Source: Candidatus Metalachnospira gallinarum (GTDB lineage: Bacteria > Bacillota > Clostridia > Lachnospirales > Anaerotignaceae). Taken from it: DNA of 64,000 nucleotides. The translations under genes and the position numbers were made by a program. The notes under the pieces were generated by a model, which saw nothing but the letters and a program-made list of their open reading frames with translations, made no database searches and was not told the DNA's origin. This document shows positions 21,963 to 56,113 of the stretch, one piece after another; the first letter of the stretch is position 1; every line of letters begins with the position of its first letter. The stretch lies in contig CAJFHC010000005.1 in the NCBI GenBank assembly GCA_904378045.1, positions 1 through 64,000 on the forward strand, given 5' to 3'.

Positions 21963-22043
21963 CGCGCGAAATCAGACGGACATATCCGTCTGTGTCAGCG
22001 TACAGCCAATTACTCGTGGCCTGAAACTGTCGTTTCCGTACAT

Positions 22044-22213
22044 CCGTCAGGCAGGTCTCCCGGCTTAAAGATCAACGCTTGGGCCATCTTCCCGGTTTCC
22101 CAGTGATATATCGGCCTTCGCTCCCTTATTACGGTGACGAGTTCGCGCGGGATTCTCACCCGCTTCCCTTTTCACCGGAGCAGGACTCGCAGTCCCCTCC
22201 GGCACCTTGACGG
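22044..22213 (-). promoter_or_regulatory. Cobalamin (B12) riboswitch
   Basis: Read on the minus strand, the core features are AAGGTGCCG at the 5-prime end, GGTGAAAAGGGAA, GGGTGAGAATCCCGC, the conserved TCACTGG, and the B12 box AAGCCGGGAGACCTGCC. CCGTCA (22213-22208) pairs with TGACGG (22049-22044), forming the closing P1 stem. Known class: adenosylcobalamin or related corrinoid binding represses downstream synthesis genes. It heads the cbiK-to-Cys-rich operon and is followed by a terminator. Which corrinoid form is sensed cannot be read by eye. Confidence 0.96.
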
Positions 22214-22230
22214 TATATTCATTTTTTATA

Positions 22231-52656: not shown

Positions 52657-53745
52657 TCACTTCGCAAGCTCCTTGCTCAGATTGACGATGAAGTCCTGAA
52701 CATTGGTAACTATTCCCCTCGCGCTGAGGCTGCCCCTGTCGCTGAGCTTGTTCACGGCAAACTCGGCTATATCCACGCAATAGAAATATACCTGTCTTAC
52801 CGTTCCGTCAGCCATTACTCTATATGAGGGCGTCATATTTCCGGTCGCTATGGTGTGGAGCGTCGTTGCCATGCATATTACCGTAGTGGCGTTTCTTATC
52901 TGGTCTCTCATGGCGTCCTGAGCCTCGTATACGTTGGCATGGACGCAGGGAAGAGGGCCGTCGTCCCTGATGGAGCCGGCAAGAACATAGGGAACATTAT
53001 ATTTTTCACAGTTATAAATAATACCGTTGTCAATGTTTTCTCCCTTGATGAAGTTGCTTACAGAGCCATAGTATCTTACCCTGTTTATCGTGTCAAGGTG
53101 ATTGTAATGTCCAAGGGGCTGGCTCTCCTGGGTATATATATTCTGTCCAAGAGCCGTATTAAGGTAAGCCGCCTCAAGGTCATGGGTGGCAAGGGCGTTT
53201 CCAGCCATAACGGCATGAACGTATCCGCTCTGTATGAGTTTTGAGAAAGCGTCCCTCGCGTCAAAGTCGAAGGTGAACGCCGGACCCATTACCCATACGA
53301 TCTTTCCGTGATCCCTGTCGTGTCTGAGAAGCTCATAAAGCTCGTCATAGTCTTTTGAGAAAGCCGTTTCTCTGGAACGTCCCTGTCTGAAAGCGAAAAT
53401 ATCGTTTTCATTTTTGCTTTCTCCGAATCCGTTGGGATGGACATATATTCCCTCTTCGCCCTTCTCCGTTCTGCCGATAACGATAAGGTCGCCCTTTTTG
53501 ATATTTCTGAACTCCTTTACGGCTATTATCCCGTTTTCATAAACGGCAACGCAGTCCATCCTGCTCTCCTCCGCGAGGAGCCATTTGCCGTTGACTTTGA
53601 AATACTCAGGAAAAATGCTCATGGCATGGTAGCGCTCGGGAACCGTGCCGTCCTTTTCGGCGGGCATAAGCACCGCGTCGGGAGCGTTTTTGAATCTTTC
53701 CTCGTTGAAATCAGGCGGGATATACTCTCTTAATTTAAAACCCAT
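52657..53745 (-). CDS. LOR/SDH-domain ornithine cyclodeaminase-type protein (AgrE C-terminal/TIGR00300-like)
   Basis: A 362-residue protein homologous to the archaeal ornithine cyclodeaminase and to the C-terminal domain of the arginine dihydrolase/ornithine cyclodeaminase AgrE. Seen: a beta-rich N-terminal half (FKLREYIPPDFNEERFKNAPDAVLMPAEKDGTVPERYHAMSIFPEYFKVNGKW), then a Rossmann-like half with KIVWVMGPAFTFDFDARDAFSKLI, GNALATHDLEAAYLNTALGQN, VPYVLAGSIRDDGPLP and MATTLHTIATGNMTPS. It would convert ornithine to proline and ammonia. The start is the ATG at 53745 after GGAGGTAATATT; the frame extends 20 residues further across a leader hairpin. Confidence 0.8.
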   Translation of the reverse strand: MGFKLREYIPPDFNEERFKNAPDAVLMPAEKDGTVPERYHAMSIFPEYFKVNGKWLLAEESRMDCVAVYENGIIAVKEFRNIKKGDLIVIGRTEKGEEGIYVHPNGFGESKNENDIFAFRQGRSRETAFSKDYDELYELLRHDRDHGKIVWVMGPAFTFDFDARDAFSKLIQSGYVHAVMAGNALATHDLEAAYLNTALGQNIYTQESQPLGHYNHLDTINRVRYYGSVSNFIKGENIDNGIIYNCEKYNVPYVLAGSIRDDGPLPCVHANVYEAQDAMRDQIRNATTVICMATTLHTIATGNMTPSYRVMADGTVRQVYFYCVDIAEFAVNKLSDRGSLSARGIVTNVQDFIVNLSKELAK

Positions 53746-53768
53746 AATATTACCTCCGGTCGTTACAT

Positions 53769-53814
53769 TAAAAAATGTTCCGCCCACGCCTCCGTATGGA
53801 AGCATGGGCTGAAC
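53769..53814 (-). terminator. Leader terminator-like hairpin before the ornithine cyclodeaminase-type gene
   Basis: On the minus strand GTTC-A-GCCCA-T-GC ... GC-G-TGGGC-G-GAAC forms a strong imperfect stem, followed by ATTTTTTAATG. It lies between promoter 53846-53874 and the ribosome-binding site, so it may attenuate the gene. Only about 25 nt of transcript precede it, too short for a large aptamer. Confidence 0.65.
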
Positions 53815-54061: not shown

Positions 54062-54090
54062 TTTACTATTTTTCATCACTGTGCTATATT
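54062..54090 (+). promoter_or_regulatory. Promoter of the yhdT-symporter leader
   Basis: TTTACT (54062-54067) and TATATT (54085-54090), 17 bases apart. The transcript start would be near 54097, giving a leader of about 250 nt before the yhdT start. Confidence 0.6.
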
Positions 54091-54096
54091 GAATCA

Positions 54097-54311
54097 ATGG
54101 ACAGTATTCCAACGGAAACTATACCATGCTTATTTTAAGAGCGTATATCCAAGCACAGCGCAGCCATATCATAGGCGGACTGTATCCCTTTTTGGGAGCG
54201 GGACTTATCCTTCAGGCGGTAATATGGCACAGGTGTGTCTTTCTGGAATTCTATCCATCCGCGGTTTTTACATTTTTTGTAAAACACAACGGATGTTTTT
54301 TTATGCATCCG
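54097..54311 (+). promoter_or_regulatory. Structured attenuating leader, candidate unrecognised riboswitch
   Basis: Between a promoter and yhdT. GCCATAT (54163-54169) can pair with ATATGGC (54222-54228), enclosing about 50 bases that include TCCC-TTTTT-GGGA and two AGGCGG(A/T) pieces. GCGG and ATGG (54216-54227, four bases between them) could instead pair with CCATCCGC (54255-54262). That sequence is the 5-prime arm of a terminator: CATCCG with CGGATG (54290-54295), an inner GTTTTTACA/TGTAAAAC stem, then seven T. The outcomes are mutually exclusive, as in a riboswitch. I could not match it to a class. The 54126-54320 open frame across it lacks a ribosome-binding site. Confidence 0.5.
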
Positions 54312-54345
54312 GTACCATGATTTTATTCAATTAAGGAGGAAAAAC

Positions 54346-54621
54346 ATGAAACCACTCACGAGAGAAGAAAAAAACCGGCAGATTAAAAAAGAAGCCACCG
54401 CCACTTTCATTCTTTTCATCATCTGCTTTGTATGGCACGTCGGATTTGGCTACGGCCTTTCCGGAAAGGATCTTTATCTTTTCGGAATGCCCCTTTGGTG
54501 GGTATTGAGCACTCCCGGCGTTTTTGTAGTTGCCGTAGCGGGAGTTGCCATCCTGCTCAAAAAAGTATTTGTCAACTTTGATCTTAACACAGAGGAAGGG
54601 GATGATGTAAATGACAAGTAA
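54346..54621 (+). CDS. YhdT-family small membrane protein
   Basis: A 91-residue protein of the YhdT/DUF997 family, with two helices (about 18-38 and 48-70) and a cytosolic acidic tail. It is nearly always encoded directly before a sodium:solute symporter of the PanF kind, as here (11-base overlap). The role is thought to be as an accessory subunit; this is not proven for this protein. The ATG follows GGAGGAAAAAC. It is the first gene behind the leader terminator. Confidence 0.85.
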   Translation: MKPLTREEKNRQIKKEATATFILFIICFVWHVGFGYGLSGKDLYLFGMPLWWVLSTPGVFVVAVAGVAILLKKVFVNFDLNTEEGDDVNDK

Positions 54622-56113
54622 GCAGATAATCGTCCTCGCCGTGCTCATCATCTACATGATCGTAAATATGGTTGTTGGACTTAAGGTGAGCCATATCGAA
54701 AAAGGTCAGAAAACCGGCAGCTTCCTTCAGAATTATTTTATCGGCGGACGTTCCATGGGCGGACTTGTCCTCGCCATGACCCTTGTCGCTACATATACCA
54801 GCGCGAGCTCTTTCCTTGGAGGCCCCGGACTTGCGGCCGACTGGGGACTTACGCAGTCATGGGTTGCGGCCATACAGATAGGAACGGCCTTCCTTACGCT
54901 TGGCGTTTTAGGCAAAAAAATGGCTATTATCTCAAGAAGAATAAACGCCGTAAGCATTACGGACTATTTCAAGGCAAGATATAATTCCCCCGCTGTCGTT
55001 ATACTTTGCGGACTCTGCCTTGTCGTATTTTTCATAACACAGATGGTTGCTCAGTTCATCGGCGGAGCGACGCTTGTGGAAACGGTTACAGGCCTTCCCT
55101 ACTGGGCCGGTCTGGCGCTTTTTGGAGTTATCGTTATTTTATATACATCAATCGGAGGCTTTAAAGCCGTAGTTATGACCGATACCCTTCAGGGAATAAT
55201 CATGACCATCGGAACATTCCTCCTGCTGTTCTTTGTAATAAAGGCCGGCGGCGGAATGGGCGAGATCACATCTCAGCTCAACGCAACAAATCCCGGATGG
55301 GATCTCCTTGGAAAGGGTCCCTTCAGCGAAGGTCTTTCAACTCTCTCCCCCGGATATATGATATCCTTCTGGGTGCTTGTCGGTGTCGGAGTCCTCGGCC
55401 TTCCTCAGACGGCGGTCAGAGGTATGGGCTTTAAGGACACTCAGTCCATGCATAGGGCTATGATGTACGGAACAGTCGTTGTCGGAATACTTATGATAGG
55501 TATGCACTTTGCCGGAGCGCTCACCCTTCCCCTTCTTCCCGAGGAAGGCATATCCAGCACCGACGCAGTCATTCCCTATGTTGTTATGGAATATATGCCG
55601 TCCGTTGCGGCCGGTTTCTTCCTTGCCGCTCCTTTGGCTGCCGTAATGTCAACGGTATCGTCGCTGCTTATTCTCGCCTCGGCTACGATCATAAAGGATC
55701 TCTACCTTACATACATCGTTAAAGCCGATGAGAATGATGAAAAAGTTAATAAAAAGGTTCCCGTATACAGCACGCTGATCACCATAGTCATCGGTGTGAT
55801 CGTATTCATATTCGCCCTTTCTCCCCCCGACATCATTGTTTGGATCAACCTTTTCGCCATGGGCGGACTTGAAGCTACATTCTTCTGGCCCCTCATCGGA
55901 GGTCTTTACTGGAAGAAAGGAAACAGTACCTGCTGTATATGGTCAATAATAGTTGGCGTTGCTACGTTCATATTCTTTAATCAGGTCAAGATAGCTCCCT
56001 ATCACATCCATGAGATCGTATTTGCCCTCATCGCCGGAGGAATAGCGTATTTTGTAGCCGGTCTTGTGTCAAAGAAAGAGCCTGACAAGGAAATGATCAA
56101 AAAATGTTTCTAA
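54611..56113 (+). CDS. Sodium:solute symporter (SSS family, PanF-like)
   Basis: A 500-residue transporter with 12-13 helices. Seen: NYFIGGRSMGGLVLAMTLVATYTSASSFLGGPGLAADWGL (sodium-site region), INAVSITDYFKARYN, GGFKAVVMTDTLQGIIM, and GFFLAAPLAAVMSTVSSLLILASATIIKDLY. These fit the pantothenate permease branch, but substrates in the SSS family vary. The Arg/Lys-rich C-terminus is cytosolic. The start ATG follows AGGGGATGATGTAA. The gene after it encodes an esterase, so an ester or organic acid substrate is possible. Confidence 0.9.
   Translation: MTSKQIIVLAVLIIYMIVNMVVGLKVSHIEKGQKTGSFLQNYFIGGRSMGGLVLAMTLVATYTSASSFLGGPGLAADWGLTQSWVAAIQIGTAFLTLGVLGKKMAIISRRINAVSITDYFKARYNSPAVVILCGLCLVVFFITQMVAQFIGGATLVETVTGLPYWAGLALFGVIVILYTSIGGFKAVVMTDTLQGIIMTIGTFLLLFFVIKAGGGMGEITSQLNATNPGWDLLGKGPFSEGLSTLSPGYMISFWVLVGVGVLGLPQTAVRGMGFKDTQSMHRAMMYGTVVVGILMIGMHFAGALTLPLLPEEGISSTDAVIPYVVMEYMPSVAAGFFLAAPLAAVMSTVSSLLILASATIIKDLYLTYIVKADENDEKVNKKVPVYSTLITIVIGVIVFIFALSPPDIIVWINLFAMGGLEATFFWPLIGGLYWKKGNSTCCIWSIIVGVATFIFFNQVKIAPYHIHEIVFALIAGGIAYFVAGLVSKKEPDKEMIKKCF

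Follow-up and report, generated by a model that had tools for sequence, protein, structure and literature searches.

The untranslated leader of the yhdT-panF operon, at positions 54091-54345 of the window (the whole stretch of 64,000 nucleotides analyzed here), is, as judged by sequence comparison, a diverged tandem pan RNA (RF01749) of a subtype below the Rfam threshold. We estimate at roughly three in four the probability that this RNA controls the pantothenate uptake operon by transcription attenuation, through a switch between a long-range helix and the terminator that would be set by the folding of pan. The comparative data thus describe a real conserved regulatory RNA, namely a diverged member of an orphan motif with a new gene context and a re-wired expression platform.

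The leader is about 250 nt long and runs from an extended -10 promoter to the yhdT start at 54346, all on the forward strand. The sigma-A type promoter (54062-54090; TTTACT-17-TATATT, with TG before the -10) would set the RNA 5' end at the foot of the first pan hairpin. A promoter pattern search gave 6 matches against 5.6 expected, so this single match is no better than chance, but the extended -10 element lies 7-9 nt 5' of hairpin 1 in all homologous leaders, and the promoter placed here by an earlier analysis of the DNA letters alone (the sequence-only reading) was retained. The Shine-Dalgarno AAGGAGG (54333-54339) was read from the sequence, and yhdT (54346-54621) was assigned by a match to the DUF997 domain (PF06196). 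The following gene, panF (54611-56113), encodes a sodium/pantothenate symporter of the SSF family and reaches 559.8 bits with the equivalog model TIGR02119 (cut-off of 328), which bears out the yhdT-symporter operon proposed earlier. The divergent neighbor (52657-53805, reverse strand) encodes a putative nickel-pincer-nucleotide dependent ornithine cyclodeaminase variant (NF052526, 628 bits). Elsewhere in the window, a Cobalamin riboswitch on the reverse strand (22032-22225; RF00174, 103 bits) is the sole Rfam family above its cut-off.

Identity and conservation of the leader RNA

When the leader was compared with all Rfam models, no family exceeded its own cut-off and no other riboswitch class matched. 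The top match among 4227 Rfam families in a permissive scan was pan (RF01749; 54098-54186, 20.1 bits, E = 0.64), a motif first described in 2010 by Weinberg et al. (PMC2864571), with panB, panC and aspartate decarboxylase genes as published contexts. Taken alone, such a match would carry no weight; it gained interest because pan belongs to pantothenate operons and the gene downstream encodes the pantothenate symporter. The score falls below the RF01749 gathering cut-off of 36.2 bits, which is a curator's threshold and no biological feature; the homologous panF leaders scored 26-35 bits (best 35.3), all those tested being under this cut-off. Because RF01749 at genome-scale filters gave no match in the host genome itself, we built a custom covariance model, R1, from seven other leaders (six panF, one KPR-panB), leaving the window out. 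R1 found the window leader with 46 bits (E = 5.7e-8) as the sole match within the 64 kb, and again with E = 1.8e-6 in a search of the whole genome, where no other match was significant. It also recovered four loci that the Rfam model, too, scores as pan (L062, L065, L072, L058), and it returned nothing significant on PanF loci without pan. The sequence-only reading had taken the leader for an unrecognised class; being a below-threshold relative of a motif published in 2010, it is not one, and the all-Rfam search proposed to settle the matter led to a known motif while leaving every family under its cut-off.

The first hairpin spans 54098-54126 (UGGACAGUAUUCC-AAC-GGAAACUAUACCA), with bulged A's at 54106 and 54123, and the second 54177-54205 (GGACUGUAUCCC-UUUUU-GGGAGCGGGACU), with bulged A's at 54184 and 54203 and one A x G mismatch. 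The mismatches in hairpin 2 count against the pan assignment. The two hairpins reproduce the tandem arrangement that is a hallmark of pan, and the leader resembles RF01749 in its stems, each about 10 pairs long and carrying two conserved bulged A's, in its position 5' of a pantothenate gene and in its occurrence in Clostridia. It differs in scoring under the Rfam cut-off, in preceding yhdT-panF rather than panB, panC or panD, and in an expression platform that draws on hairpin 1, with its 5' arm, rather than on the 3' arm of hairpin 2.

A DNA-level search with the whole leader gave essentially chance matches beyond the window's own locus. Since the leader sequence diverges fast, homologous leaders were located in public genomes through PanF protein homology, among relatives carrying yhdT-panF. 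Tandem pan was found in the leaders of PanF relatives with at least 67% identity, except for two, and yhdT-panF lies behind a tandem pan leader at 15 loci. In the first exception (L088, genome G645), a single pan hairpin was recognised directly before the yhdT Shine-Dalgarno, without a terminator, which suggests, from the arrangement of the sequence, a translational version of pan control. In the second (L037, PanF 71% identical), no pan was present in the upstream sequence examined; hence, pan goes with one PanF clade in most cases, though not in every one. A check of more distant PanF homologues, with less than about 60% identity (L044-L055, L089-L094), found no pan.

Covariation supports the pan stems. 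Of the cells in an alignment of 38 leaders to the model, 96% were paired, and 16 of the 20 pairs showed double (compensatory) changes, a level reached by none of 500 shuffles, while slid-partner controls were 37-45% paired. This alignment was fitted to the structure, and an independent MAFFT alignment of seven leaders agrees with it. All four bulged positions were A in 38 of 38 leaders. The fold of the window leader was also more stable than its shuffles (z = -3.0). The broader proposal of the sequence-only reading, an attenuator-type leader before a vitamin transporter, held: the leader is structured and conserved, and it is linked to the metabolism of what the transporter carries.

Its specific switch fared less well. 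The closing stem GCCATAT/ATATGGC is present in the window and in the minimum free energy (MFE) fold, and the antiterminator pairing of GCGG..ATGG with CCATCCGC can form there, but the equivalents of both in the 15 homologous leaders were mostly no better than shuffles. A covariation search among yhdT-panF homologues, proposed in support of these pairings, thus returned a conserved leader in which the covarying stems are those of pan and not the closing stem or antiterminator. A new, unrelated riboswitch class built on these two elements would accord with their formation in the window and with the finding that no Rfam family reaches its cut-off on the leader, but the conserved core is pan, and we regard such a class as highly improbable, largely refuted already by R1, the covariation and the pairing tests. 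Least credible of all is leader-peptide attenuation, or no regulation at all: an ORF of 64 amino acids with an ATG does exist at 54126-54320, but the strong RNA covariation already refutes chance structure. Leader-peptide attenuation was dropped because the ORF is not conserved in the homologues, its ATG being lost in four of them (L032, L033, L034 and L036, of which L034 comes from a cultivable relative, Bacilliculturomica massiliensis).

Long-range pairing and the terminator

The intrinsic terminator at 54256-54302 consists of CATCCG (54256-54261) pairing with CGGATG (54290-54295), an upper stem and a tract of seven U's (54296-54302). It was missed by a simple terminator pattern because of an internal loop; as anticipated by the sequence-only reading, it is present in the folds and its CATCCG...CGGATG-Tn core is conserved in the homologous leaders. 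Hairpin 1 is absent from the predicted MFE fold of the free RNA. Instead, positions 54097-54111, the 5' arm of that hairpin, pair with 54244-54258 (UGGAAUUCUAUCCAU), a candidate antiterminator strand that runs into the 5' arm of the terminator. Forcing hairpin 1 cost 0.5-7.3 kcal/mol relative to the long-range-helix state in ten leaders. The conserved pairing is this one, and not the switch proposed earlier.

When the region from hairpin 2 to the U-tract was searched for the best partner of the hairpin 1 5' arm, the site overlapped a conserved UCCAU at the terminator foot (UCCAC in L087 and UUCCGU in L043) in 15 of 15 yhdT-panF leaders. Against shuffled regions, this partner had p values of 0.002-0.15 per leader in the 15 leaders, uncorrected for shared ancestry. 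In a swap test on the same 15 leaders, swapped pairs matched as well as own pairs in 19 of 50000 permutations, again with shared ancestry uncorrected, and on ten leaders alone in 648 of 20,000. Compensations within the helix include UUCUAA/UUAGAA (L035), GGUAUUC/GAAUACC (L128, L129), ACGGA/UCCGU (L043) and GUGGA/UCCAC (L087).

The helix captures CAU at 54256-54258, the terminator bases that pair beside the U-tract. As the two structures share only 2-3 nt, the energy model yields a partial exclusion, and the window terminator, modeled thermodynamically with the helix formed, retains 5 of its 6 lower pairs. Modeling thus points to an exclusion that would be partial or kinetic, with a direction that we infer. 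This coexistence is also what one would see if the helix were no antiterminator, stacking on the terminator, or if pan acted on translation or RNA stability. The single hairpin before the L088 Shine-Dalgarno, together with some panB leaders that continue directly into the ribosome site (L062, L067, L068, L077), fits such an explanation, which we consider unlikely: the helix of the panF leaders lies directly against the terminator foot, or overlaps it, and captures the bases paired beside the U-tract, and panB, panC and panD leaders tend to pair the 3' arm of hairpin 2 into the 5' arm of the terminator. The latter pairing was seen in many, though not all, cases, and the logic would therefore be the same as in the panF leaders, with different wiring.

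In the attenuation mechanism that we favor, hairpin 1 would open when the supply of coenzyme A (CoA) or pantothenate is low, and its freed 5' arm would pair with 54244-54258. The terminator would then lose the base pairs beside its U-tract and yhdT-panF would be transcribed. At high supply, the pan hairpins would be held either by a ligand, CoA or one of its precursors, or by a protein that responds to CoA; with pan kept folded, 54244-54258 would be released, the terminator would be completed and uptake would be switched off.

Gene contexts of pan and the signal it may report

RF01749 is present in 61 of 391 genomes of the host's class. The next genes in 30 pan loci that we read were mostly panB, panC, panD and the DUF2520 (KPR) gene. 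Other contexts extend this list. Tandem pan lies directly before coaBC at three loci (L058, L113 in G001 and L115 in G003). At L072 (1501-1597, reverse strand), an Rfam-positive pan is followed by an ECF S component (PF12822) and then by a Fumble-type pantothenate kinase (PanK), likely marking a pantothenate ECF transporter. Within one genus, three loci (L131, L133 and L149, at about 1500-1750 in gene direction) carry tandem pan, a terminator and an OPT-family transporter (PF03169), an arrangement from which import of pantothenate, or of a pantothenate/CoA-related compound, is predicted for this OPT member. B. subtilis, too, has a pan RNA of its own.

The distribution within the window's own genus follows the same lines. 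Genome G002 has pan before KPR-panB-panC-coaBC and no PanF match, while G001 and G003 have pan before panF and before coaBC and are without panB and panC. Pan thus stands 5' of pantothenate pathway genes both here, at panF, and in G002. We did not find panC in five genomes with pan-panF, namely the host genome (G000), G001, G003, G307 and G529; several pan-panF genomes therefore must import pantothenate. Completeness is 100% for G307, 99% for G529 and about 95% for the host assembly, whose lack of panC is weak evidence because the essential coaBC is missing from it as well. The host genome does contain a lone panB-like gene above the TIGR00222 cut-off (L101 1644-2585, G000:C42), with no pan upstream and no panC; possibly, it is a re-purposed PanB paralogue. 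Beside it lies a small membrane-protein ORF that, by its look, resembles an ECF S component.

If pan reports pantothenate/CoA status and remains with the operon that provides the supply, whichever that is, a gene distribution of this kind would be expected. On these sequence contexts, the association with genes of both uptake and coenzyme A suggests that pan senses the supply of vitamin B5/coenzyme A. The control of PanK and CoaBC, steps after pantothenate, would favor a later pathway signal such as CoA. Indeed, an end-product signal is favored over pantothenate itself because the regulon spans uptake (PanF, the ECF S component and the OPT transporter), panBCD, PanK and CoaBC. Whether RNA or protein would read this signal is a separate matter. 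That pan acts as a true riboswitch, with coenzyme A or a late precursor as its ligand, is in our view less likely than not. We give about even odds to the same RNA serving a protein sensor, in which a dimeric RNA-binding protein reporting the CoA level would grip both hairpins of an attenuator that is no riboswitch. Small tandem hairpins with bulged A's point to a dimeric protein site, and Weinberg et al. (2010) considered that pan might bind a protein dimer (PMC2864571). The bulged A's are invariant while the stem letters vary freely, a pattern typical of protein sites, and in some leaders only one hairpin can be recognised (L088, L026). Against this, direct binding of a ligand by a docked pair of hairpins would be equally possible.

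Relation to known regulators and significance

Riboswitches for TPP, FMN and cobalamin that precede vitamin transporters offer a parallel, in that a leader attenuator couples uptake to cofactor status through terminator/antiterminator logic. They bear no sequence or fold relation to the pan leader, and pan is only a candidate riboswitch. Protein-dependent attenuators with tandem hairpin sites are alike in their small repeated hairpins, invariant bulges and nearby terminator, and differ in that pan has no known cognate protein. In the literature searched, which included few subscription papers, pan appeared only with biosynthesis genes and no signal was reported, though an experimental study could exist; beyond the 2010 description, we found pan in one genome annotation.

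The yhdT-panF and other transporter contexts extend the published list of pan genes. Pan before panF in genomes without panC, together with coaBC, PanK, the ECF S component and OPT transporters, narrows the signal to the pantothenate-to-CoA axis. Being compact and having a defined terminator, the panF leaders could serve as a reporter with which to test directly whether a ligand or a protein is involved. Reviews name coenzyme A as a cofactor for which no riboswitch is known and call this a notable blind spot (PMC9971707, PMC10043782), and a CoA-sensing pan, if true, would fill this gap.
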